Shown here in pieces: positions 9,298 to 57,107 of a stretch of 64,000 nt of DNA. The DNA is from Methanoregula sp. PtaU1.Bin051. Lineage in GTDB: Archaea; Halobacteriota; Methanomicrobia; Methanomicrobiales; Methanospirillaceae. The position numbers and the translations under genes are program-made. Location of the stretch: assembly GCA_002067895.1 (NCBI GenBank), contig MVRE01000012.1:124001-188000 (forward strand), in the 5' to 3' direction. Positions within the stretch are counted from its first letter, which is position 1. The number at the start of each line of letters is the position of its first letter. Below the pieces are notes generated by a model, which was not told where the DNA came from, made no database searches, and saw only the letters and a list, made by a program, of their open reading frames with translations.

Positions 9298-9753
9298 GTG
9301 GCTGAAACGAGAATGATTCCGATCTATTCCGTCCGTACCGGAACGGTTGGGCAGTTGAGCCCGGTCGAAAAAACCGAGGCCGAATGGATGGAGATCCTCT
9401 CCCCGCAGCAGTTTTACGTTGCACGGAAGAAAGGGACCGAGCCGGCGTTTACCGGGATGTATCATGACTGGAAGATGAAAGGCGTATACCAGTGCGCCTG
9501 CTGTAAGACCGACCTGTTCCTCTCTGATATGAAATTCGATTCGGGCACCGGCTGGCCCAGTTTTTCTGCCCCTGTCTCGGAGCTCAATATCAGGACGGTC
9601 CCCGACCGATCTCAGGGTATGAACAGAACGGAAGTGCTCTGCGCCCGCTGCGGGGCCCACCTCGGGCATGTCTTTGACGACGGCCCGCCGCCGACGCACA
9701 AGCGGTACTGCATGAACTCGGCGTCCCTTGCCTTCGTGCAGCAGGAACCATGA
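9298..9753 (+). CDS. msrB: Peptide-methionine (R)-S-oxide reductase MsrB
   Basis: A 151-residue MsrB that reduces the R form of methionine sulfoxide in proteins. Zinc-binding pairs are seen (CACC and CARC), then GHVFDDGPPPTHKRYCMNSASL, whose Cys is the catalytic one. Start choice: GTG 9298 is preceded by GGAGGG with 5-base spacing, giving VAETRMIPIYS; an internal ATG at 9313 is the alternative. The stop overlaps the following gene by 4 bases, so the two are co-translated. Role: oxidative damage repair in an anaerobe. Confidence 0.93.
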   Translation: MAETRMIPIYSVRTGTVGQLSPVEKTEAEWMEILSPQQFYVARKKGTEPAFTGMYHDWKMKGVYQCACCKTDLFLSDMKFDSGTGWPSFSAPVSELNIRTVPDRSQGMNRTEVLCARCGAHLGHVFDDGPPPTHKRYCMNSASLAFVQQEP

Positions 9754-10559
9754 CCGGACAACCGCATCGCGCCATACAGAACGAGAAACAGAATACTGCA
9801 GATACCTTTCGTAGCAGCCTGCGAGGCGACAGGATCATCCCCGGCATCCCAGCGAGGCTCACTGCGCTCCGGCAGGATCTTTTCTCAGTAAACGACTATC
9901 CCGAGGACAAGCTCGCGGAGATCATCCGGGACGTCGGGTTTGCCTGCGACTGCTGCACGAGGTGCTGCACGAAAGAGTTCAACGACCACGTCTTCCTCCT
10001 CGACAAGGACACAACAGTAATCAAATCCATCGATCCCACCGCCCTCATACCCGCGCCCTACTTTGAGCTCTGCGACCAGCGCGGGCGGTTCTACGACTCC
10101 GGCTATGCGCTCCGGACAAAGCCGGACGGCACGTGCTTTTTCCTCAATGGCAACCGGTGCAGGATCTACGACAACCGGCTCTCCATCTGCCGCATCTACC
10201 CGTACATGCTCCACCGGGAGCCTGACGAGGACGGGATTATTGACTGGCGGCAGATCAGCGGGCTGAACAAGCACGGGACGTACCACAACGAGATCCACAT
10301 CGAGGAGAGCCTCGCCATCGCACGCGAGGTTAAGGCCTACGAGGCGGCATTCATCGGACAGACCATCCGGTTCTACGAGTTCATGTGCGATTATTTTGCA
10401 TCGCATGGCCTCCGGCATGTCCGGAAAACCTACGATGACGGGATGCGGGCGTTCCGGAAGGGCGAAGAGATCGAGGTTTTCGTGCTGTATGATGGCCGGC
10501 TGGAGCCGTGGCTGATGAGGGGCAACGACGCTGTCCCAGATGTTCCTGGTATGAAATAA
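9750..10559 (+). CDS. YkgJ-family cysteine cluster protein
   Basis: A 269-residue protein with a CxxCC-type cluster (CDCCTRCC, residues about 67-74) followed by CFFLNGNRCRIYDNRLSICRIYP, the typical order of the YkgJ/UPF0153 putative zinc- or iron-chelating domain. The region after residue 165 has no recognised motif. It overlaps msrB by 4 bases, so a link to redox damage or metal handling is possible (inference). The following 0.9 kb contains no gene. Confidence 0.85.
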   Translation: MTGQPHRAIQNEKQNTADTFRSSLRGDRIIPGIPARLTALRQDLFSVNDYPEDKLAEIIRDVGFACDCCTRCCTKEFNDHVFLLDKDTTVIKSIDPTALIPAPYFELCDQRGRFYDSGYALRTKPDGTCFFLNGNRCRIYDNRLSICRIYPYMLHREPDEDGIIDWRQISGLNKHGTYHNEIHIEESLAIAREVKAYEAAFIGQTIRFYEFMCDYFASHGLRHVRKTYDDGMRAFRKGEEIEVFVLYDGRLEPWLMRGNDAVPDVPGMK

Positions 10560-10602
10560 GGAACGTATCATAAGGCTTGTCCGGTCATCTGGCTTGTGAA
10601 GA

Positions 10603-11283
10603 GGGGGGTCTGAATTGTAACCCCCCTCCCCATTGTAAAAAAATTGTGGGCAAGGGGGGTTCCCTTGGGGGCGGGGGGTCTCATTTCCGTAATAGAGGGG
10701 GGAGGTCTGATCTGAGACCCCCTACCTGTTTCTTACGAGTACTTTAAAACTGCCTTGCCGACGGTACTTCCAAAAAGGTACAAGTCGGCCGGATGCAACA
10801 GGGGGGTCTCATTTGGCCGGACGGGGTAGGGGGTTATGTACGAGACCCCCCTGCCTCTTGGAAAAAAATCCAGCCGGAGGGGGGTGGCATAGGCAGGGGG
10901 AGGTCTCATATGAGACCCCCTGTCAGACAACCGGTGCCGGGAGAGTACTGCGACGTAAATTCCGGAAGAAGCGGTTAGCCGGGGACAGGGCAAGGGGGTC
11001 TGAGATGTGACCCCCCCCCCACATTGAGTCTGAGGGGGTACCCCCTCCTATTGGGCGTATATGGGGGGAGCTGGTCTGAGGATGGCCGACCCCCACCATG
11101 GGGGGTGGGGGGGTGTCCGCGATCCAACGGGTGGGGGGTACCCTCCCCCCGTCCGGGTGGGTGTATCCCCCGTTTTGCACGGGAAATGATGGTTGATCTA
11201 CTGAAATCTCCGTCGGAGAGCAAAAACCGCCAAAGAGGGGGTACCCCCACCCCCCACTCACCGCTGTGCAGGGGGTACCCCCT
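10603..11283. repeat. Island of G-tract palindromes and inverted repeats
   Basis: This non-coding stretch contains at least nine inverted repeats whose arms are runs of 5-6 G ending in GGTCTC, GGTC or GGTACC. Examples: GGGGGGT/ACCCCCC (10603-10626); a 10-bp pair 10674-10683 with 10713-10722; a 12-bp pair CAGGGGGGTCTC 10799-10810 with 10842-10853; palindrome GGTCTCATATGAGACC (10902-10917); GGGGGTC/GACCCCC (10994-11015); GAGGGGGTACCCCCTC (11032-11047); CCCCACC/GGTGGGG (11091-11110); GGGGGTACCCCC at 11237-11248 and 11271-11282. The 5' half favours GGTCTC, the 3' half GGTACC. ORFs here are low complexity and lie on both strands, so none is taken as a gene. Confidence 0.8.
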
Positions 11284-11398
11284 CAGGGGGTCAGGATGGG
11301 GGGTAGGGTAAGGGATGCAGGTGGGGGGCTTATCTCATTGGACGATGTCTGGAAGTATAACATAATTTCTCTAAATCAATCTGATAACGAAACATTGA

Positions 11399-11413
11399 AT
11401 TTTATAAAATCTA
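11399..11413 (+). promoter_or_regulatory. TATA box for the zinc-finger nuclease gene
   Basis: TTTTATAAAATCTAT lies 34-48 bases before the ATG at 11447. No Shine-Dalgarno sequence precedes the ATG, suggesting a short leader. Confidence 0.45.
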
Positions 11414-11446
11414 TAGGGAGTACTATCGATCAAGTGAGATTAAATA

Positions 11447-13015
11447 ATGGCATTTTGTCACGAATGTGGAAATCAATTGAAAGGCACAGAAAAGTTCTGT
11501 GGTAATTGTGGATGTAAATTAAGTGATAATATTAACCTTGAAATTTCGCAGGATCAAGATTTGAATTTAGAGAGAGAAGAAACTCACGATGAAAATAAAG
11601 CGATCCCGAAAATTCGAGATCCCACTATCGGAAAAAACTTCGAAAATGTTGTTGAACAGATCTATATTCATGCGGGGTATATCACAGAAAAGCGTCAACG
11701 TATCCCTGGAAAAAGCGGATACACAAATGAGATAGACGTTATCGCAATAAAAGGCCGCGATAAAGTTGCTATAGAGTGTAAAAATTATCTCACACAAGTG
11801 GGTATCCAACCGATCCGCGATTTTGCCGAAAAACTCCAAGATTTAGGTCACGAGTGGCGTGGAGTTGTCGCGAGTTATACCGACTTTTCATCAGATGCCG
11901 AAGAATTCGCTAAGAGCAGAAATATAGAATTATTGAACAATAACGATATCAAAGAACGTCTTTATTCTGCTCTCTCCGGAAGAAGCGCAGAAAAGGGAGA
12001 TCGCATTTTTATTGAAGACACCTTGGCGGTAAATATTGATTATGATAAGGCCACTTTCTTAGATTTGTGTAATAGTAATCACATATCAGTCTCTACGGCA
12101 AAATTGGTTTTTCATCCGTATTTTCGGTTTAATTATAAGATGAATCGGATCTGGTTTGACCGGCAAGCACAAAAGAATCGTACATTCAAAGATTCTGGGA
12201 TTGTCGTTATCGATCTTATAGATAATGAAGTCATTACAGAAGAGGAAGATCCCGTAGGATTTCAGGAAGTAATAAAAAATAAACCTTTAAAGTCGATTTC
12301 TATCGCAATCGACCAAAATTATCGTGTTATTAAAATCGATCCAAAATACAATAAAAAAGCTCTTAAAAATTCTGCAATTTCTTACGTAATTGAAGAAAAT
12401 ACACGAAATGACCTAGGATTCATTCCAAAAAGGCAGGATATTACATTGGATATCGGAACACTTGTTTATTTACCAAAATGGGAACTTAATTTCGATTCCC
12501 ACGGAAAAGTTTACTCTCGGGAAGTGCTTGCATGTTCAGGTCAAATACTCTTTGACACAATTACCAATTGCCCATTACATGAGAGATCTTTTTTCAGATC
12601 CCTCAATCCCTTAAACAAAACCATTGCAGTATGTGAAGAATGCGGGCAGGCATTTTGTAAAAACCATGGGACTCAATGCGCTATCTGTAAAAAATGGCTA
12701 TGTAATACCCATTCAATTCGCTGTAGTATATGCCAGACGCCGTTTTGTTCGGATCATATAAAACAAAGTTGTAACTTGTGCAACGATTATGTCTGTTCGA
12801 ATTGTGTCGTAACATGCACGACATGTACAAGGATTGTCGGAAAACATCACCTCAAGCAATGCAATCATTGCGGAAAAACTGTCTGTAGTATGTGTGTTAC
12901 ACAGACAGGAACGCTTTTTAAAAAATATTATTGTAAGGATCAGTGTGATCTTATCGTTAAAGCCGAAAAAGAAAAATCAAGTTTAATGGGAAAACTAACT
13001 AAAAAATTCAAATAA
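11447..13015 (+). CDS. Zinc-ribbon / Mrr-like nuclease / tandem zinc-finger protein
   Basis: A 522-residue protein in a gene far richer in A+T than its neighbours. Residues 4-21 form a zinc ribbon (Cys4, Cys7, Cys18, Cys21). Residues about 60-175 match a PD-(D/E)xK restriction-endonuclease fold of the Mrr type: Glu66, then NEIDVIA with Asp97, then IECK with Glu110 and Lys112. A middle domain (about 185-380) is unrecognised. Residues 396-500 carry six units beginning CxxC at 396, 411, 426, 442, 457 and 472 (period 15-16), each followed by a second CxxH/CxxC-like half (e.g. CEECGQAFCKNH), resembling interleaved B-box or LIM-like zinc binding. This suggests a DNA-cleaving, nucleic-acid- or protein-binding accessory factor, possibly defensive (inference). 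It is convergent with a DNA methyltransferase gene 19 bases away. Confidence 0.8.
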   Translation: MAFCHECGNQLKGTEKFCGNCGCKLSDNINLEISQDQDLNLEREETHDENKAIPKIRDPTIGKNFENVVEQIYIHAGYITEKRQRIPGKSGYTNEIDVIAIKGRDKVAIECKNYLTQVGIQPIRDFAEKLQDLGHEWRGVVASYTDFSSDAEEFAKSRNIELLNNNDIKERLYSALSGRSAEKGDRIFIEDTLAVNIDYDKATFLDLCNSNHISVSTAKLVFHPYFRFNYKMNRIWFDRQAQKNRTFKDSGIVVIDLIDNEVITEEEDPVGFQEVIKNKPLKSISIAIDQNYRVIKIDPKYNKKALKNSAISYVIEENTRNDLGFIPKRQDITLDIGTLVYLPKWELNFDSHGKVYSREVLACSGQILFDTITNCPLHERSFFRSLNPLNKTIAVCEECGQAFCKNHGTQCAICKKWLCNTHSIRCSICQTPFCSDHIKQSCNLCNDYVCSNCVVTCTTCTRIVGKHHLKQCNHCGKTVCSMCVTQTGTLFKKYYCKDQCDLIVKAEKEKSSLMGKLTKKFK

Positions 13016-13034
13016 TTCTTTTAAGAGATTGAGT

Positions 13035-13805
13035 TCAATCAATTCCCATTTCCTTCCTTATTCTCTCCAGCGCGATCCGGCAGTACTCCGCGTCCAGCTC
13101 GATCCCGGTTCCCCTCCGGCCGCACCGGGCCGCAGCGACAAGCGTGCTCCCGCTCCCGAGGAACGGGTCGAGGATAAGGTCGTCCACATAGCTGAAAAGT
13201 TTCATGCACCGCAGCGGCAGCTCGACCGGGAACGGGGCCGGGTGGTTCACCTTCTTCTTGCTCTCGCCGGAGAACGTCCAGAGCCCGTTCGTCCAGTCCA
13301 TGAACTCCTGCCGGGTGATGTCGCTCTTCCGGCCTTCGGCCGGCCGCTTCCAGTCCCCCTTGTACAGCACCACGATCAGCTCCACCGGCGCGATCACGTA
13401 CGGCGCCGAGGGGCTCATCCACGACCCCCACGCGGTCCGGCGCGAGATGTTCCCCTCGTTCCAGACGATCGTGGAATGGTAGGAGAAGCCGGCCTCTTTC
13501 GCGATCGCCGTCAGGTCTGCGCCGACGCTCTGCTGGCCGCCCTTGTTCTTGTCGAGCGGGATGTTCAGGCAGAACCGGCCGGACTTCCTGAGCCAGCGGT
13601 AGCACCGGGACATCCATTTTTTCGAGAACGACAGGTACTCGTCATACGAACCGCCGTCATCATGGTTCCCGTACCGGATATTCACGTTGTAAGGCGGTGA
13701 TGTGACGATGAGGTCGATGCTCCCGCTCCTGAGCTGCCTCGTTGTCAGGACATCGTCGTTGATGATCCGGAGCCGGTCGTTTTCGAAATAAACGGGAGAG
13801 GCCAC
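13035..13805 (-). CDS. DNA methyltransferase, amino-group (N4-cytosine or N6-adenine) type
   Basis: About 256 residues. The order TSPPYN (motif IV, near residue 35-40) before DPFLGSGST (motif I, near 213) is that of beta-class DNA amino methyltransferases. TSPPY rather than DPPY favours N4-cytosine, but N6-adenine is possible. The open frame extends to 13961, but that would overlap the divergent gene at 13912; GTG 13805, preceded by AGGGT, is the only internal start before the conserved core. G+C content is high like the chromosome and unlike the facing nuclease gene. It may be a solitary methyltransferase or part of a loose restriction-modification pair. Confidence 0.85.
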   Translation of the reverse strand: MASPVYFENDRLRIINDDVLTTRQLRSGSIDLIVTSPPYNVNIRYGNHDDGGSYDEYLSFSKKWMSRCYRWLRKSGRFCLNIPLDKNKGGQQSVGADLTAIAKEAGFSYHSTIVWNEGNISRRTAWGSWMSPSAPYVIAPVELIVVLYKGDWKRPAEGRKSDITRQEFMDWTNGLWTFSGESKKKVNHPAPFPVELPLRCMKLFSYVDDLILDPFLGSGSTLVAAARCGRRGTGIELDAEYCRIALERIRKEMGID

Positions 13806-13911
13806 TGCGTTACCCTGCGTTGATGTGGGTGTTTGAAGGTCAAGTAACCAGCGGAATTGTCTTCCCGAATCATTATCGCCCGGCGCTCCGAAAGTTTGTT
13901 GCGGTGAACGG

Positions 13912-14289
13912 ATGAAGACAACCCTGATCGCCCCCTGCGGGATGAACTGCGGGATCTGCATGGCCTTCCTGCGCGAGAAAAATCATTGCCCCGGCTGCCG
14001 GTCGCCTGGAGTGAAGCACCAGAAATGCCGGATCCGCAGCTGTGCGGACATGGGGGGCAGGTACTGCTTTTCCTGCTCCGTCTTCCCGTGCCGGTTGCTG
14101 AAGAATCTGGACAAGCGGTACCGGAAGAAGTACGGCATGAGCATGGTCGAGAATCTCGAATCGATCCGGGGCGGGGGGATCCGGAAGTTTGTCGCGAGCG
14201 AGAAAGAGCGCTGGGCATGCCGGGATTGCGGCGGGACGATCAACGTCCACCGCTACTGCTGCTCAACGTGCGGAAAGATAACGAAGTAA
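13912..14289 (+). CDS. DUF3795 cysteine-rich protein
   Basis: A 125-residue protein beginning MKTTLIAPCGMNCGICMAFL, the DUF3795 signature (predicted zinc-binding), with further Cys pairs (CPGC, CFSC, CRDC, CSTC). A DUF3795 relative also occurs at 62647-62964. It is divergent from the methyltransferase gene. A T-run near 14331-14337 may end the transcript. Function unknown. Confidence 0.8.
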   Translation: MKTTLIAPCGMNCGICMAFLREKNHCPGCRSPGVKHQKCRIRSCADMGGRYCFSCSVFPCRLLKNLDKRYRKKYGMSMVENLESIRGGGIRKFVASEKERWACRDCGGTINVHRYCCSTCGKITK

Positions 14290-21541: not shown

Positions 21542-22066
21542 ATGGAGGGGCCTGCACCAGAGTTCGAAATCCGGAGTGCGGTTATCCGGATCTCCGATCG
21601 AAACAGCTTCCTTGACGCATTGCGCACGGTCATGCGCAAACACCATGCTACGATCATCTGTTTTAACGCCGACAATATGGCGGGGAGGCGGCATGCCGAA
21701 TCTGCCGTATCCCATGCCCTCCGGTCATTTTCAAAAGGCGCACCGATCGCAAAAACCCTCGAAGTAGAGGCTCTTCTTTATGCTGCCGGAACACGCCAGT
21801 GTACGGAAGCCGCAATCTTTGGCATCCATCATGGCGAGAACCGGGCATATGTCTGTTGCATCCCGCCGGATTCTGCGATCTGGGACGCACTGACAGCCCT
21901 GATGCATTTCGTTGACGATACGTGGGACCAGTTGGATCCGGCCAAAATCGGACGGTTGAAACAGCTGTTTGCGATTACTGAGGAGGAGGTTATCGCAGCA
22001 GATGGCATATCACGGCTGCAGGATCTCGTCATCGAGCGCGTCGCGCTCCTTGACGCCTACAGGTAA
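21542..22066 (+). CDS. KEOPS complex subunit Cgi121
   Basis: A 174-residue protein matching archaeal Cgi121, the KEOPS subunit that binds the CCA end of tRNA during N6-threonylcarbamoyladenosine synthesis. Supporting segments are ICFNADNMAGRRHAESAV, the conserved TLEVEALLYAAGTRQCTEAAIFGI core and the C-terminal EEVIAADG. The start is ATG 21542; the open frame extends upstream inside hel308 without similarity. It is probably co-transcribed with hel308. No other KEOPS subunit is in the window. Confidence 0.88.
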   Translation: MEGPAPEFEIRSAVIRISDRNSFLDALRTVMRKHHATIICFNADNMAGRRHAESAVSHALRSFSKGAPIAKTLEVEALLYAAGTRQCTEAAIFGIHHGENRAYVCCIPPDSAIWDALTALMHFVDDTWDQLDPAKIGRLKQLFAITEEEVIAADGISRLQDLVIERVALLDAYR

Positions 22067-22124
22067 GTGTCCCTGGTGCAGTTCTCGTTAAAAGAAGTGG
22101 GTCGATATCCGGATAATGCCCGGG

Positions 22125-22634
22125 TCAGCGGCTGGCATGGGAGATTATGTGAAGAATTTCTGGTACGATGAGGGCCGATGTTGCCAGTTTCACTGCCGGT
22201 GTTGAACCGGGGATGCAGAAAACGGCGCAATTCTTGATCGTGCCCGCGACGGCCCGGGAAAGCATGGCGGACGTCCCGATCTCCTCGTAACTCTTCAGCC
22301 GGAAGAGTTCGCCGAAACCGTCGATTGTTTTTTCGAGGAGCGGGGTTACTGCCTCAATGGTACAGTCGTCATGGGTGAGCCCGGTCCCGCCGTTGATAAT
22401 GATGCAGTTGGCATGGCGCATAGCCTTAGCAAGCTCGGCCCGGATCGTTTCGATCTGATCCGGGACAACCGCATAATAACCGACCGGGTACCCTGCTTCG
22501 CGAACAATCTCACTGATTGTAAGACCGCTGGTATCATTTTCAGCAGTCCGGCTGGTAGATACCGTGATGATCCCGGTCGTAATGGCAACTGCCTGAAGGT
22601 GCTCTTTCTTCATATTATTAAAAGTGGTGGTCAT
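22125..22634 (-). CDS. moaB: Molybdenum cofactor biosynthesis protein MoaB/MogA family
   Basis: A 169-residue MoaB/MogA-like protein that would adenylylate molybdopterin. Seen: ITVSTSRTAENDTSG, then IIINGGTGLTHDDCTIEAV (the GGTG molybdopterin-binding motif) and FCIPGSTPAVKLA. A methanogen needs molybdopterin for formylmethanofuran and formate dehydrogenases. It is divergent from orc1/cdc6 across the putative origin. Confidence 0.92.
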   Translation of the reverse strand: MTTTFNNMKKEHLQAVAITTGIITVSTSRTAENDTSGLTISEIVREAGYPVGYYAVVPDQIETIRAELAKAMRHANCIIINGGTGLTHDDCTIEAVTPLLEKTIDGFGELFRLKSYEEIGTSAMLSRAVAGTIKNCAVFCIPGSTPAVKLATSALIVPEILHIISHASR

Positions 22635-22695
22635 TGCTAGTTAATAAAAACGGGGTATTACACTCCATTTCCTAAAATCTGACCAGATAACCATG

Positions 22696-22717
22696 ACCCC
22701 TTTATTTCCACTGGAAA
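22696..22717 (-). promoter_or_regulatory. ORB-like Orc1/Cdc6 binding box 1
   Basis: Minus strand reads TTTCCAGTGGAAATAAAGGG followed by another G, a near-exact match to the archaeal ORB form (TTCCAGTGGAAAC plus an AAGGGG tail). It is the best of the three boxes. Confidence 0.75.
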
Positions 22718-22940
22718 GCCATTCGTGCCGTGAATACCAGATATCATGATAAAAAACCCCTGATTGAGATGACAGGCATTCGTAACACTAGTGTTTTTGT
22801 TTTGGTTTATCCTATCTGGGGTGCTTTATAACTGAATGTGGTAGCCTCGTTGGGTCAATACAATTGATCCTCTACATAATGAGATCGTTTCGATTGATTT
22901 TTATTATAGGAAAAGAAAGTTACCAAATGCTCGTGTAAAA

Positions 22941-22972
22941 TTCATGATCTATAAGTGAACATAGATCATGAA
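22941..22972. repeat. Perfect 12-bp inverted repeat inside the origin
   Basis: Arms TTCATGATCTAT (22941-22952) and ATAGATCATGAA (22961-22972) flank an 8-base spacer AAGTGAAC. It ends three bases before the second ORB-like box. Confidence 0.85.
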
Positions 22973-22975
22973 AAT

Positions 22976-22995
22976 CTCCACGCGAAACAAAGGGG
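22976..22995 (+). promoter_or_regulatory. ORB-like Orc1/Cdc6 binding box 2
   Basis: CTCCACGCGAAACAAAGGGG keeps the GAAACAAAGGGG right half of the ORB element; the left dyad half is degenerate. Confidence 0.6.
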
Positions 22996-23128
22996 TCCCC
23001 CACTCGAACTTGGAAGCCTTTACATGATGTTAAACGGACCATACAAATTTGGGAATATTACAAATAAATAAATTTAAAAAAATCCAAATAGGGAGGGAAT
23101 TATTGGAATCCGCCCGCAATTTCAGGGA

Positions 23129-23149
23129 TTTCCATACGAAGCGAGGGGG
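23129..23149 (+). promoter_or_regulatory. ORB-like box 3 adjoining the orc1/cdc6 promoter
   Basis: TTTCCATACGAAGCGAGGGG followed by another G is a weaker ORB match. It directly abuts the TATA box at 23150-23157, so Orc1/Cdc6 binding here could repress its own gene. Confidence 0.5.
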
Positions 23150-23159
23150 TTTATAAAGA
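23148..23159 (+). promoter_or_regulatory. TATA box for orc1/cdc6
   Basis: GGTTTATAAAGA, a clear TATA-like element about 61-72 bases before the ATG, immediately downstream of ORB-like box 3. Confidence 0.5.
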
Positions 23160-23219
23160 GAGCAAACAATCACCTTTTTCACATCAGACCACTTAGGATC
23201 AGTTCCACAGGGTACAGCC

Positions 23220-24512
23220 ATGCCAGAACAGGAAGATCCCTCAAAAGGGTTATTCAACAAATATCTTTCCAACAACAAGATCTTCAGGGATCGCGAAGTG
23301 TTGCGGCACTCGTACCGCCCTCAGATCCTGCCGCACAGGAAACCCCAGATCGAGGAGATCGCCTCCATTCTGGCACCTTCATTGCGCAATGAGACACCGT
23401 CCAATATCCTGATCTACGGCAAGACCGGGACCGGTAAGACCGCCTGCGTCCGGCATGTCGGGACCGAACTTGAGAAGGTTTCCAGCAATATGGGAACAGT
23501 ATGCCGGATTGTTCACTTAAACTGCGAAGTGATCGATACTCAGTACAGGGTATTGGCCCAGATCGCAAAAGAGCTCTCCGGGATTGATGAGATGGCAAGT
23601 GATAAGGCCAAGACGCACATCCCGATGACCGGGTGGCCTACCGATCAGGTCTATGCGGAGATGAAGAACCAGCTGGACTCCAGCAGAGCGGTTCTTGTAA
23701 TCGTGCTGGACGAGATCGACAAACTGGTAAAAAAGAGCGGCGACGACACGCTCTACAACCTGACAAGGATAAACTCAGATCTCAAGAACTCCAAAGTGAG
23801 CATCATCGGTATCTCCAATGACTTAAGTTTCAAGGACTTCCTCGATCCACGCGTCCTCTCTTCGCTCTCGGAAGAAGAGCTGGTCTTCCCTCCCTACAAT
23901 GCCCCGCAGCTCGTGGATATCCTAGCACAGCGTGCCGAGGCGGCATTCGTCCCGGGTGCGGTATCGGACGGGGTCATTCCGCTCTGCGCTGCCCTCGCCG
24001 CACAGGAGCATGGCGATGCCCGGCGGGCACTCGACCTGCTCAGGATCTCGGGCGAACTGGCGGACCGCGACGAATCCGAAAAAGTACTGGAAGAGCATGT
24101 GAAACAGGCGCAGGCAAAGATCGAGACCGACAGCATGATCGAGTGCATTGCCACGCTGCCCACCCAGAGCAAACTGATCCTGTATTCCATGCTGATCCTT
24201 GAAGGGCTCGGGCAGAATATCTTCACGAGCGGGGAAGTATCCCGCATTTACCAGGATATTGCCCCCATTATAGAGCTCGACGTCCTGACCCACCGGCGCA
24301 TTACAGACCTGATCTCGGAACTGAATATGCTCGGCGTTATCAACACCCGTGTCGTGAGCAAGGGGCGGTACGGCAGGACCAAGGAGATGTGGTTCGACTC
24401 CAATACAGGCAAGATCCGCGAGGTTGTGCAGAAGGACCCGCGGCTGAACGGGCTCAAGCATCTCGATCTCAAACAGATGGAAACCAAATGGATTAAGACA
24501 TGGTTCAGGTGA
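23220..24512 (+). CDS. cdc6: Orc1/Cdc6 replication initiator
   Basis: A 430-residue AAA+ initiator. Walker A GKTGTGKT is at 67-74, Walker B VLDEID at about 162-167, sensor regions follow, and a C-terminal winged-helix domain begins near residue 320. It binds ORB elements and loads the MCM helicase. The adjacent upstream interval contains matching boxes. An Lrp-family regulator follows after 6 bases. Confidence 0.95.
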   Translation: MPEQEDPSKGLFNKYLSNNKIFRDREVLRHSYRPQILPHRKPQIEEIASILAPSLRNETPSNILIYGKTGTGKTACVRHVGTELEKVSSNMGTVCRIVHLNCEVIDTQYRVLAQIAKELSGIDEMASDKAKTHIPMTGWPTDQVYAEMKNQLDSSRAVLVIVLDEIDKLVKKSGDDTLYNLTRINSDLKNSKVSIIGISNDLSFKDFLDPRVLSSLSEEELVFPPYNAPQLVDILAQRAEAAFVPGAVSDGVIPLCAALAAQEHGDARRALDLLRISGELADRDESEKVLEEHVKQAQAKIETDSMIECIATLPTQSKLILYSMLILEGLGQNIFTSGEVSRIYQDIAPIIELDVLTHRRITDLISELNMLGVINTRVVSKGRYGRTKEMWFDSNTGKIREVVQKDPRLNGLKHLDLKQMETKWIKTWFR

Positions 24513-52942: not shown

Positions 52943-54106
52943 ATGGCAGCTGTTGTTTTTTCAAAGCATTTATCATTGAGGGAAGGCTATACTGCCGAGA
53001 TACATGGTGGACAGACTGCAATGGACAGATTGCATGCAATCCTGAACAAAGGGGTGGAAGGGCACCGGCTGACAGAGGAAGAGGCCCTGTTCTTATTCGG
53101 TATACAGGATCGTGCCATCTGGGATGTGGCAGCAGCGGCAGATCAGGTCAGGCAGAAAAAGACCGGGGGTGTCGTGACTTATGTCAAAAACCAGAATATC
53201 AATGTCACAAACCTGTGCGTCAATGCCTGCGGGTTCTGCGGGTACTCAAAGAAGCCCGGGGATGACGGGGTGTATTTTTTTACTAAGCAACAGGTCCAGG
53301 AAAAAGTTCGGTTGGCAAAGTCCCGTAATGTAACCGAGATCTGCACCGTAAGCGGGCTGCACCCAGACTTTACTACTGAATCATATACCGGTCTTTACAG
53401 GTGGATAAAAGAAGTATTTCCAGAGGTCCATATTCACGCAAGCAACCCGATGGAAGTCGCCTATGCAGCAAGGAAGAGCGGGATGACGACACGGGAGGTT
53501 CTCTCCGCTATGAAAGCTGCCGGGCTGGGATCTCTGTGCGGTACGGCTGCGGAGATCCTTGTCGACGATATCCGGAAGGAGATCTGCCCCCAGAAAATCA
53601 GTACGGATGAATGGATCCGAATCATCAAAGAGGCGCACGGGTTAGACATCCCGTCAACGGCAACCATCATGTACGGGCATTGCGAGAGCAATGAGGACCG
53701 GGTTAAACATCTGGCAATCCTCCGTAAAATTCAGGACGAAACCCGGGGGTTTACCGAGTTCGTCCCCCTCTCGTTTATCCATATGAATACTCCCCTTTAT
53801 AAAAAGGGCTTTGCACGTGCAGGAGCGACAGGCAGGGAAGATCTGCTGATGGTCGCGGTCGCCCGTCTCTTCCTTGACAATTTCAATAACATTCAGGTCT
53901 CGTGGGTCAAGGAAGGAATAAAGATGGCGCAGATCTCGCTCCTTGCGGGGGCCAATGATCTTGGCGGAACGATGTTTGAGGAAAGCATCTCTAAAGGAGC
54001 AGGTGCGCAGAATACCGATTATCTCGATCCTGCTGAGATGCAGAGGATTACAGAAGATGCGGGAATGAAGCTCCGGCAAAGAACAACCCTTTACCGACTT
54101 CTTTGA
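52943..54106 (+). CDS. cofH: F420 biosynthesis: 7,8-didemethyl-8-hydroxy-5-deazariboflavin synthase subunit CofH
   Basis: A protein of up to 387 residues. The radical SAM cluster CVNACGFC (Cys92, Cys96, Cys99) and the sequence GYSKKPGDDGVYFFTKQQV match CofH, which joins tyrosine with a ribityl-diaminouracil in making F420. F420 is the central hydride carrier of hydrogenotrophic methanogenesis. The start may instead be ATG 53021 (MDRLHAIL), close to the family start. The MqnC relative is unlikely given the host. Confidence 0.9.
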   Translation: MAAVVFSKHLSLREGYTAEIHGGQTAMDRLHAILNKGVEGHRLTEEEALFLFGIQDRAIWDVAAAADQVRQKKTGGVVTYVKNQNINVTNLCVNACGFCGYSKKPGDDGVYFFTKQQVQEKVRLAKSRNVTEICTVSGLHPDFTTESYTGLYRWIKEVFPEVHIHASNPMEVAYAARKSGMTTREVLSAMKAAGLGSLCGTAAEILVDDIRKEICPQKISTDEWIRIIKEAHGLDIPSTATIMYGHCESNEDRVKHLAILRKIQDETRGFTEFVPLSFIHMNTPLYKKGFARAGATGREDLLMVAVARLFLDNFNNIQVSWVKEGIKMAQISLLAGANDLGGTMFEESISKGAGAQNTDYLDPAEMQRITEDAGMKLRQRTTLYRLL

Positions 54107-54197
54107 TTCACCTGTTTTCTTGGCACGATGAAGGGGAATGTTGATTGGCAGGTGATGTAATAATCTATTAACAAAAAGTGTGGAAGGAATTACACGT

Positions 54198-54692
54198 ATG
54201 CGCATCAAGCCGAATATTTTCTATCTCATTGTCGGGATTATTGCCCTCATTGAAGTCGGTATTTTCTGGGTGTCCATTGAGTTAGATAACCCGATTCTGA
54301 TTCAGGCTGCAGTTTTAATCGGAATCATCGTGATCTATCTCGCGAAGAGGAAGGTGGAAACGATTATTGAGGACGAGAGGACCCAGTTTATCGCACAGAA
54401 AGCGGCATTGCGGACGCTCGAGGTCTTCTGGGTCATCTTCTTCGTCATGAGTCTTGGGAGCATCGTCATGGGGATGAACCGGCCACTCCACTTCCGTCCT
54501 CCGGTGTTTCCCGGCAGCCAGGGCTCTCCTCCATCGGATATTGAAGTCAATCTCCCGCTTGTCGGTCCGGAGACCTTTGGCAGATTCGGTTTCGTCCAGC
54601 TTGGCCTGCTTTGTCTGATGATTTTCCTCTATATCGGGTTCCGTATCTATTACGGCCGTAAGTATGGGGCGAGTGAGGCCGATGAAGAATAA
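54198..54692 (+). CDS. DUF2178 membrane protein
   Basis: A protein of about 164 residues with four membrane helices and a central [15 protein letters not shown] segment, the DUF2178 pattern. ATG 54198 follows AAGGA. It overlaps the XRE-regulator gene by 11 bases. DUF2178-XRE pairs recur in archaea and bacteria; function unknown. Confidence 0.75.
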
Positions 54693-54876
54693 GATCAAGG
54701 TATACCGGGCAATGCATGATATGACGCAGGAAGACCTTGCACAGGCTATCGGCGTGACCCGGCAGACCATCCTTGCCATTGAAAAGGGCAAGTACATCCC
54801 GTCACTGGATCTCGCCTTCAGGATTGCCCGGCATTTTAAAGTTAATATCGAGGAAGTTTTTAATTACGAAGAATAA
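54682..54876 (+). CDS. XRE/Cro-like helix-turn-helix regulator
   Basis: A 64-residue protein: [40 protein letters not shown] is a compact Cro/C1-type DNA-binding domain of the YozG-like group. It probably controls itself and the overlapping upstream DUF2178 gene. Confidence 0.88.
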
Positions 54877-54977
54877 TGCAATAAACTTCGGGAGCAGATC
54901 CGGATCATGAAAGGATCTGCACCATTAAGATTCTGTTACTACTCCCGCCCAGCGTTTTAGTGATTATTACAAGCCCA

Positions 54978-55355
54978 TCATGTTCCTCCTGACGGAGGTG
55001 TCCCCGACGGGGGAGTTCCGGAAGACTGCATATCCGCCGGGGGGGTTCCTGATGGCCGCGGGCGGGTATTGTTATCTGCCTTCATATCATCGGAAAATCC
55101 TGCCGGGGGCGTTCCGCTTGGCGGAGTTCCCGATATCTCAGGATGAGTTGCATTCCCTGATTTCAAGGGGTGCGGGGACCCGTCCTGAGATGCTGCCTGA
55201 AAAGTTCCCGATGGTCTGGATCCTGCATCATCTGTAATAGTTGGTTCAGCCGATTTCGCCGGTTCAGTTCCCGAATCGGAAATGCACCCGGCAACAAGAA
55301 CTCCTACAGTAAGCATCAGGCATGCTATTACAAGTATGGTAGTGCTCTTCATCAT
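54978..55355 (-). CDS. Proline-rich lipoprotein with SGTPP repeats
   Basis: About 125 residues. The first 24 form a lipoprotein signal ending LVAGC (ILVIACLMLTVGVLVAGC). The remainder is disordered, with repeats of the form SGTPPSGTPP and single SGTP/SGTF copies among Asp, Thr and Asn. The start is ATG 55355 or 55352, with AGGAG upstream and a minus-strand TATA (AACAATATATTTGC) near 55392-55405. An exported low-complexity protein; function unknown. Confidence 0.65.
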   Translation of the reverse strand: MMKSTTILVIACLMLTVGVLVAGCISDSGTEPAKSAEPTITDDAGSRPSGTFQAASQDGSPHPLKSGNATHPEISGTPPSGTPPAGFSDDMKADNNTRPRPSGTPPADMQSSGTPPSGTPPSGGT

Positions 55356-55781
55356 AATGTGAATCTCCTGACATGTCGCGTAAGACTGCAAATATATTGT
55401 TTTACCTGACAATTAGTAATCAATATGTTACATAATGTTATTTAAAGATTACCATGAGTTCTGTATATCGCCATTAACCATCAATCCTGGAATAGTATGC
55501 TGCCTTCATTCCTGTGAGAAGAATACGAAAGAGCCGGCACTCTGACAGGCGGTATTACCACCTTTTTCTATAGTAAGTTATTTAAGACTTAATGTCAAAT
55601 ATACTTTACACAGATGTGGAACAGTACCGGAACCCGGCAGCGATGGACTATCACTCATAATAGGGAAACACCAATAAAACCCGGTGAACACAATGACCGA
55701 ATTCGGTCTCCATGATATCCGGATTATCAACTTGCCACGCTGGCACAACTTGATGAACCCATAGAAGAATGGTGAAACAAG
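55356..55781. other. Divergent promoter region before the exporter operon
   Basis: 426 bases between the lipoprotein gene and the secreted-protein/ABC operon. It contains a minus-strand TATA near 55392-55405, a plus-strand TATA-like GTTATTTAAGAC near 55576, a perfect palindrome GACCGAATTCGGTC (55695-55708) and a 23-codon reading frame (55694-55765). Confidence 0.6.
55694..55765 (+). CDS. Possible 23-codon leader ORF
   Basis: ATG to TAG encoding MTEFGLHDIRIINLPRWHNL plus three residues, with GGTGA six bases upstream of the ATG, ending 16 bases before the next gene's ATG. It overlaps the palindrome at 55695-55708. It may be a leader peptide or chance. Confidence 0.2.
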
Positions 55782-57107
55782 ATGATAGTACGATTACTTG
55801 TCTCCTGCCTGCTCTTGCTGATCGCGCTCGTGGCATCAGCCGGGGCAGCAACTACAGACATAAGTACTGCTGAGATAAGCATTACCAGCTTTTCGATTGA
55901 ACCAACAAATCTTATGGAGTGGGATATCGGGACACTGAGCGTTACGATAAAGAACACCGGGTCTTCTTCGATCAATATTGAATCCGCTCAGCTGGATCCC
56001 CCCGTTACCGGTTTTAAAATCCTGAATGACCAGACGTACGATTCTGTCGGTGCAATCGGGGTGGACGACACGCGGACTTTCACGTTCTCTTTCCAGGCAA
56101 ATGTTCCAGATGGCGTTTATTACCCGAAGTTCTATCTCGATCTCGATAACCAGGGATGTTTCCGGGAGTACATACCGGTGGAAGTGAAAAGCACTGAACT
56201 CGTCGTGGCGGTTGGGGACGCTCCGGATGCATTTGGCGAAGGGAAAAAGTCCGATGTCGTTATCTCAGTGAGCAACCCGCGGCCGAACACGATAAACTCG
56301 GTTACAATTACGCCTTCCGGAGATGGCGCCACCTTCTCCCCCAAACAGGCATTCCTCGGTGAACTTGCATCGGATCAGACCAAAAATGCTACCTTTAAAG
56401 TGACGCCAGAGAAAGAGACAACACTCCAGTTCGATGTCACATACCGGAATGGCCTGAACGATCATTCGGCAACGGTCACGTTACCGGTTGAATTCGGCGA
56501 TGACAAACTCAGTGCCGAGCCCGTTCTCAACAATGTCGAGATTGCCGGTGGCAACGGATACAACACTATTTCGGGCGACATCAACAATGCCGGACTTACA
56601 AGCGCGTATTCTGTCACGGTAACCGTCGGCAGCCCGGCCACGGCAGTCGACCCGAATAAGATCTATGTCATCGGTGAACTGGAACCGGATGACTTTGCCA
56701 GTTTCGAAGTAACCTATAAATCATCCGGTTCGACAGTGCCGGTCGTTGTCACGTACAAGGACGCTGACGGGAATACATTTACCAAAACCTTCGCTGTTGA
56801 TATGTCTGCCGGAGGCGCCCCCCTCTCCGGTATATCAGGCTCCTCATCAGGAAGCTTTTCCGGTTCCGGAACCAGCAGCGCTCCCGGCGGGGCACCCGGT
56901 AGCACCCGTGGCGGGATATCTGTCTTTGGCATGAGGGGAGGCAGCAGCGGGGCCCAATCGCTGCCTCTTATGGAGATCGGCACCGCACTCATCGTAATCA
57001 TCGTAATCGTAGTCTTCGCATGGAAGAGGGGATATCTCCGTAAAATAAAGGAGCGGATCCCCAGGCGGAAAAAGAGCGAGGACGATGATGACTTCCCCAA
57101 TCGTTGA
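55782..57107 (+). CDS. Secreted, membrane-anchored COG1361/CARDB-like protein
   Basis: A 441-residue protein with an N-terminal signal peptide (about 1-23), three beta-sandwich repeats (about 30-130, 130-235, 245-345) of the COG1361/CARDB type, a Ser/Gly/Pro-rich linker (about 348-395), one membrane helix (about 402-422) and a basic cytoplasmic end followed by DDDD. It is the first gene of an operon with a MacB-like ABC transporter, so it may be the extracytoplasmic partner that binds or presents substrate (inference). Confidence 0.8.
   Translation: MIVRLLVSCLLLLIALVASAGAATTDISTAEISITSFSIEPTNLMEWDIGTLSVTIKNTGSSSINIESAQLDPPVTGFKILNDQTYDSVGAIGVDDTRTFTFSFQANVPDGVYYPKFYLDLDNQGCFREYIPVEVKSTELVVAVGDAPDAFGEGKKSDVVISVSNPRPNTINSVTITPSGDGATFSPKQAFLGELASDQTKNATFKVTPEKETTLQFDVTYRNGLNDHSATVTLPVEFGDDKLSAEPVLNNVEIAGGNGYNTISGDINNAGLTSAYSVTVTVGSPATAVDPNKIYVIGELEPDDFASFEVTYKSSGSTVPVVVTYKDADGNTFTKTFAVDMSAGGAPLSGISGSSSGSFSGSGTSSAPGGAPGSTRGGISVFGMRGGSSGAQSLPLMEIGTALIVIIVIVVFAWKRGYLRKIKERIPRRKKSEDDDDFPNR

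Follow-up and report, generated by a model that had tools for sequence, protein, structure and literature searches.

A predicted Mrr-type nuclease with a C-terminal zinc-finger array in Methanoregula, and relatives of its parts on other archaeal proteins

One of the genes in the window, by which we mean the whole 64,000-nucleotide stretch of Methanoregula DNA analysed here, encodes a protein in which a zinc ribbon, a Mrr-type nuclease domain, a middle domain and a zinc-finger array follow each other (Table 1). The open reading frame listing gives it an ATG start and no internal stops. Its G+C content of 36.5% (GC3 31.6%) is far below the 57.3% of the flanking sequence, in agreement with the first-pass annotation, which had described the gene as poorer in G+C than its neighbours. 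Other dips in G+C content occur in the window at positions 22000-23500 (about 44%) and 54000-56500 (47-49%).

Table 1. Features at the nuclease locus, in window coordinates.
Feature	Position	Strand	Basis
Left-flanking gene, cysteine-rich, YkgJ-like by inspection	9750..10559	+	Adjoins the methyltransferase gene directly in relatives
Segment of about 2.47 kb inserted with respect to same-genus genomes, comprising the palindrome island and the nuclease gene	10560..13031	.	blastn
Island of G-rich palindromes inside the insert; repeated genome-wide	10600..11340	.	GGGGGTACCCCC sites across the genome
Candidate archaeal TATA box, TTTTATAAAA	11400..11409	+	Precedes the ATG by about 38 nt; predicted by direct sequence reading
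Complete gene, 522 amino acids: zinc ribbon, Mrr_cat nuclease, middle domain, zinc-finger array	11447..13015	+	Open reading frame listing, Pfam, near-full-length homolog alignment
N-terminal zinc ribbon, residues 3-25 (C4, C7, C18, C21)	11453..11521	+	Zn_Ribbon_1 below cut-off; four cysteines invariant in 9 homologs
Mrr-type PD-(D/E)XK nuclease domain, residues 59-175 (E66, D97, E110, K112)	11621..11971	+	Pfam, AlphaFold, Foldseek
Uncatalogued middle domain, residues 176-392; strand pair, then helix and strands	11972..12622	+	No PDB or consistent Pfam match; common to other archaeal proteins; partial model
C-terminal zinc-finger array, residues 394-500; CxxC starts at 396, 411, 426, 442, 457 and 472, C496/C500 cap	12626..12946	+	CxxC positions, shuffles, homologous array of HerA-type ATPases
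N6/N4 DNA methyltransferase, resident in the genus, outside the acquired unit	13035..13961	-	Pfam and same-genus genomes

The locus was compared with its counterparts in related genomes. The blastn homology to same-genus genomes ends at about 10522-10541 and restarts at 13032 in G004, where the two matching stretches lie only 35 bp apart. In five genomes of the genus (G004, G007, G001, G005 and G003) the left-flanking gene directly adjoins the methyltransferase gene and the nuclease gene is absent from the site, and the window therefore carries an insert. The gene was found in none of the seven other same-genus genomes examined. Since it is absent across the sampled genus and has a foreign base composition, we infer a gain in the window genome rather than five losses, in support of the acquisition suggested by the first-pass annotation. 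No integrase or flanking repeat accounting for the insert was noticed at the locus.

Neither of the features next to the gene is supported as its partner. It does lie beside a DNA methyltransferase gene (PF01555, E 1.1e-44), which the first-pass annotation had taken to suggest a common module, but the methyltransferase is resident in the relatives. The co-acquisition of a type II restriction-modification pair can thus be rejected, as the methyltransferase occurs without the nuclease in the five same-genus genomes. Likewise, the palindrome island is present, as had been stated, but it is a genome-wide repeat rather than a companion of this gene: the genome contains 17 exact GGGGGTACCCCC sites at several places, versus 3 for the reversed control. 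The palindromes GGGGGTACCCCC and GGGGGTCTCATATGAGACCCCC are often located about 100 bp apart within the islands, others of which were seen at G000:C3:198998, C13:172790-173103, C20:77049-77334 and C23:6386-6494, and at additional sites.

The nuclease domain matches Mrr_cat over residues 62-170 (E 2.7e-13; 50.5 bits against a cut-off of 21) and contains the (D/E)..(D/E/Q)xK catalytic residues D97, E110 and K112. These are invariant in a 9-member alignment, together with E66, the four ribbon cysteines and the CxxC cysteines of the array. The N-terminal ribbon that had been proposed is likewise borne out by its conserved cysteines and by a match to Zn_Ribbon_1 (E 3.9e-4, below the Pfam cut-off); it takes the place of the Mrr_N winged helix, for which the Pfam scan of the 522 residues gave no match. 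The AlphaFold models were built from two sequences only, with a mean pLDDT of 46 for the whole protein and 55 for the middle domain, and their use was restricted to the nuclease part and the core of the middle domain. In the nuclease part, where pLDDT is about 40-84, the secondary structure elements are modelled in the order alpha-beta-beta-beta-alpha-beta. A Foldseek search with this part of the low-confidence model gave AF1548, MspJI and AspBHI as the best PDB matches, and also Can2; the archaeal repair nucleases 2vld and EndoMS were matched too. Most of AF1548, MspJI, AspBHI, Can2 and EndoMS are PD-(D/E)XK nucleases that act on DNA. No significant homolog was found in a PDB search with the whole protein.

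Among known systems, the Mrr and MspJI-type modification-dependent enzymes (type IV and IIM) come close in that they combine a Mrr_cat PD-(D/E)XK domain of the D..ExK kind with fused extra domains, and enzymes of this class do not need a methyltransferase partner (PMC3874153). The window protein differs from them in its zinc ribbon, uncatalogued middle domain and zinc array, and in the lack of a detectable Mrr_N. The archaeal protein AF1548 (PDB 1Y88), whose function is not known, ranks first among the Foldseek matches to the nuclease part (E 2.5e-4, with a low-confidence model), yet its structure of 184 residues leaves no space for an array. The C-terminal Mrr-like nuclease of ZorD in Zorya and the Can2-type CRISPR nucleases have a related nuclease domain, whereas their helicase and CARF domain were not found in the window protein. 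In PADLOC, there were only partial matches to Mrr domains (ZorD C-terminus, E 1.3e-8) and no full-length match to any listed defence protein.

The first-pass annotation had counted six regular CxxC units in the C-terminal array. The six start positions are correct, but the picture was slightly idealised, because unit 5 is incomplete: its third cysteine is replaced by G465, in the window protein as in most relatives of the same order. Every unit but the fifth has a second ligand pair, CxxH or CxxC, in phase with the first (404/407, 419/422, 434/437, 450/453 and 480/483); the array ends with the C496/C500 pair, and C375/H378 lie upstream of it. The whole protein contains 10 CxxC motifs versus a mean of 1.7 and a maximum of 8 in 10,000 shuffles. 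When the cysteine-rich array segment was shuffled alone, the observed 8 motifs were reached in 86 of 10,000 shuffles, and the argument for an array consequently rests on the regular spacing and the conservation in homologs, not on the CxxC count. Closely spaced cysteine and histidine pairs are also a feature of the LIM, B-box, FYVE, RING and AN1 fingers, but any matches to these lie below the cut-off, and the period and the terminal cap are of the archaeal-array type. LIM, B-box, FYVE and AN1 gave no match above the Pfam cut-off, the only Pfam matches being sub-threshold ones of the treble-clef type, and a PDB search with the array gave no significant homolog. Both the ribbon and the array are predicted to bind zinc.

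The middle domain, about 215 amino acids long, had been called unrecognised. This holds insofar as its profile has no PDB match and no consistent or convincing Pfam match, but the domain is not unique to the window protein and recurs on other archaeal proteins. The partial AlphaFold model of the middle domain in the L027 homolog has a pLDDT of 77-86 in the core and a mean of 55; a Foldseek search with this low-confidence model returned no meaningful match and no PDB fold match to PepSY. A match to PepSY (PF03413) was obtained for a distant relative only, at 19.2 bits against a cut-off of 24 (E 0.0015), and not for the middle domain of the window protein. For an internal duplication that the middle domain seemed by eye to contain, hhalign gave no support (probability 0.3%).

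We identified 18 further homologs with the nuclease and middle domains, 13 of which belong to the same phylum and 5 to a second archaeal phylum. Eleven are encoded by genomes of the same order (G054, G321, G466, G298, G171, G456, G462, G461, G288, G369 and G415) and two by other families of the phylum (G131 and G360), while those in the second phylum are L027 (G543, the Nitrososphaerota MAG Candidatus Gagatemarchaeum), G860, G848, G811 and G588. They are 31-44% identical to the window protein. In a tree of 19 proteins, the 18 homologs and the window protein, the latter clusters on a long branch with members of its own family. The proteins of Gagatemarchaeum, G811 and G588 have the ribbon, nuclease and middle domain and just one or two fingers. 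The distribution is patchy, with matches at E <= 1e-20 in 14 of the 232 genomes of the order, counting the window genome and partial or variant copies. Partial or broken copies are located at contig ends in G507 and in G058, where the nuclease part and the array are present and the middle domain is absent. A homolog in G871 (L156 5924-7335) is split across two frames and possibly represents a frameshifted gene. The plasmid and phage collections gave no match, and the genomic and viral contig matches driven by the zinc ribbon were to other zinc-ribbon proteins where examined, L027 excepted.

The nuclease and the array are under purifying selection in the intact homologs. For close pairs with an intact nuclease, dN/dS was 0.12-0.17 for the whole gene, 0.03-0.11 for the nuclease and 0-0.12 for the array; these are simple pairwise Nei-Gojobori estimates, with few changes in some pairs. 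Among 12 aligned proteins, the catalytic residues are kept in all but the G461 homolog (L059 8898-10349), in which EIDV is changed to FTLV and ECK to ACM and the ribbon is partly lost, with the middle domain and array kept; between G461 and G462, dN/dS was 0.64 for the nuclease and 0.13 for the array. The intact PD-(D/E)XK core proposed earlier, to which E66 can be added, thus gains in strength, and we infer that the window protein would act as a DNA endonuclease, because its catalytic residues are invariant and under purifying selection.

Parts of this architecture are also found without the nuclease. About 28 of the 349 genomes from the second phylum contain frames of 900-1065 amino acids to which the middle-domain profile aligns with its later portion. 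A HerA central domain (E 6e-18 to 3e-15) is present in the three that were scanned with Pfam. The ATPase is followed by a coiled-coil-like stretch, a piece resembling the end of the middle domain and a finger array. These HerA-type proteins (L146, L147, L152 and L158) resemble the window protein in part of the middle domain, in the 15-residue finger array and in a similar terminal cap, but have their own ATPase and coiled-coil-like stretch where the window protein has the ribbon and nuclease, and their arrays are mostly longer (9-19 CxxC). The arrays score 63-93 bits, compared to at most 49 in shuffles with every cysteine and histidine fixed, and the likeness must therefore extend beyond the ligand spacing. 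The match to the middle domain only was weaker, with E 1.3e-5 in L152, 0.003 in L162 and unconvincing values in the others. No conserved partner was found beside the HerA-array gene across six genomes. Since HerA family ATPases move DNA, their possession of the same tail argues that it serves for docking, either to DNA itself or to a partner bound to DNA.

Furthermore, the middle-domain profile gave some match in 86 of the 232 genomes of the order, including in many of them a protein of about 320 amino acids. This protein aligns with the family across the nuclease and middle domains (hhalign probability 97.8%) and lacks the nuclease motif; it is also encoded in the window's own genome (G000:C13; L082 3333-4301), with relatives in L079 and L084. 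In the two loci that were read, one of them G000:C13, its gene adjoins a dihydrolipoamide-dehydrogenase-like gene. The 320-residue protein and the G461 homolog both lack the nuclease motif, and the module must therefore have non-nuclease uses as well. Two Mrr proteins that end in a hydrophobic, membrane-spanning-looking stretch are also related to the family (hhalign probability 99.5%).

No neighbour is conserved across the family loci. In some of them defence-type genes, differing from locus to locus, are suggestive: a type II restriction endonuclease and methyltransferase with PemK/SocA near the homologs of both G298 and G456, an NB-ARC TPR protein in G462 together with an 8xMP protein, a NACHT TPR protein in G369, a NERD protein near the G288 and G369 homologs, and a Mko/HEAT-PDDEXK-like helicase(-nuclease) in G360. 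The ten neighbour proteins scanned were likely candidates picked by hand, with no control for the background frequency.

We tentatively interpret the protein, at somewhat less than an even chance, as a stand-alone Mrr-type PD-(D/E)XK DNA nuclease with a zinc array that docks to DNA or protein and a likely role in type IV-like defence against foreign DNA. The nuclease domain, with E66, D97 and E110-x-K112, would cut DNA in a metal-dependent manner, and the middle domain and array may serve as a docking or regulatory module that tethers the enzyme to the DNA or the protein it targets. The reuse of this module on HerA-type DNA-pumping ATPases and membrane-anchored nucleases would point to DNA handling, and foreign or modified DNA would be restricted in the type IV manner, with no methyltransferase partner. 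DNA as the target and defence as the role are both presumed here. We favour type IV-like restriction over housekeeping repair because the gene is solitary, patchy in distribution, inserted here and not in the relatives, and located near varying defence-type genes.

A chromosomal function in DNA repair or end processing seems rather unlikely to us. The array would then recognise breaks, stalled forks or a repair protein while the nuclease trims the DNA, in parallel to HerA-NurA, which would fit the array and part of the middle domain on HerA-type ATPases in another archaeal phylum as well as the structural matches to 2vld and EndoMS. Against it, the gene is absent in the majority of the order's genomes and in the other genomes of its genus, and neither the nuclease gene nor, in the six genomes, the HerA-array gene has a conserved gene adjoining it. 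We also considered the possibility, which we regard as unlikely, that the protein is a sensor or scaffold whose middle domain and array have a protein, a metal or the membrane as binding partner, the nuclease being secondary and serving as a binding platform in some lineages. The G461 homolog, with its DxExK residues lost and its array constrained, is what one would expect in that case, and the 320-residue protein, the variants with a membrane-like C-terminus and the weak PepSY match on one relative can be read in the same way. Yet the catalytic residues are kept in 11 of the 12 aligned proteins, and the nuclease dN/dS is low in the intact pairs, often the lowest of the protein. Finally, the AT-rich composition, the single insertion and the long branch could indicate an arrived passenger, non-functional or selfish, with no role in the host. 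This we consider improbable, as the reading frame is uninterrupted and, long branch notwithstanding, has retained every catalytic and zinc residue, and homologs in several lineages are under purifying selection.

The nuclease domain is of a known kind; its combination with the middle domain and array has no counterpart among the families of the libraries searched, nor has the module itself. The architecture had been noted as unrecognised, and it is indeed covered by no curated family, but it represents a recurring archaeal family rather than a one-off. The open-access papers searched contained no description of it, a weak negative given that most subscription papers lie outside that set. A bolder and more doubtful proposal is that the middle domain and finger array constitute an unnamed, archaea-wide DNA-transaction module, which Mrr nucleases have exchanged with HerA DNA pumps and with proteins anchored in the membrane, and that the nuclease form is an undescribed single-protein archaeal antiviral restriction system. 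Archaeal immunity beyond CRISPR and classical restriction-modification is thinly described, and a solitary single-gene nuclease that combines an uncatalogued middle domain with a zinc array also present on HerA ATPases is easily tested. With a name for the shared module, several archaeal protein families could be annotated together, among them the 320-residue protein found in many genomes of the order.

A number of additional proteins with similar fingers were observed. Further HerA-type array proteins of about 1000 amino acids are encoded by single genes in the second phylum (L161-L166). Haloarchaeal proteins of 1096-1097 amino acids (L159 4218-7508 and L160 5051-8338) have a long array in which the same finger unit is matched 24-25 times, and the gene order around them looks similar in the two genomes, with products of about 600, 1096, 350 and 304 amino acids. 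Lastly, the short proteins in L020 and L022 begin with a zinc ribbon, contain hydrophobic stretches and end in a single finger that resembles the array cap.
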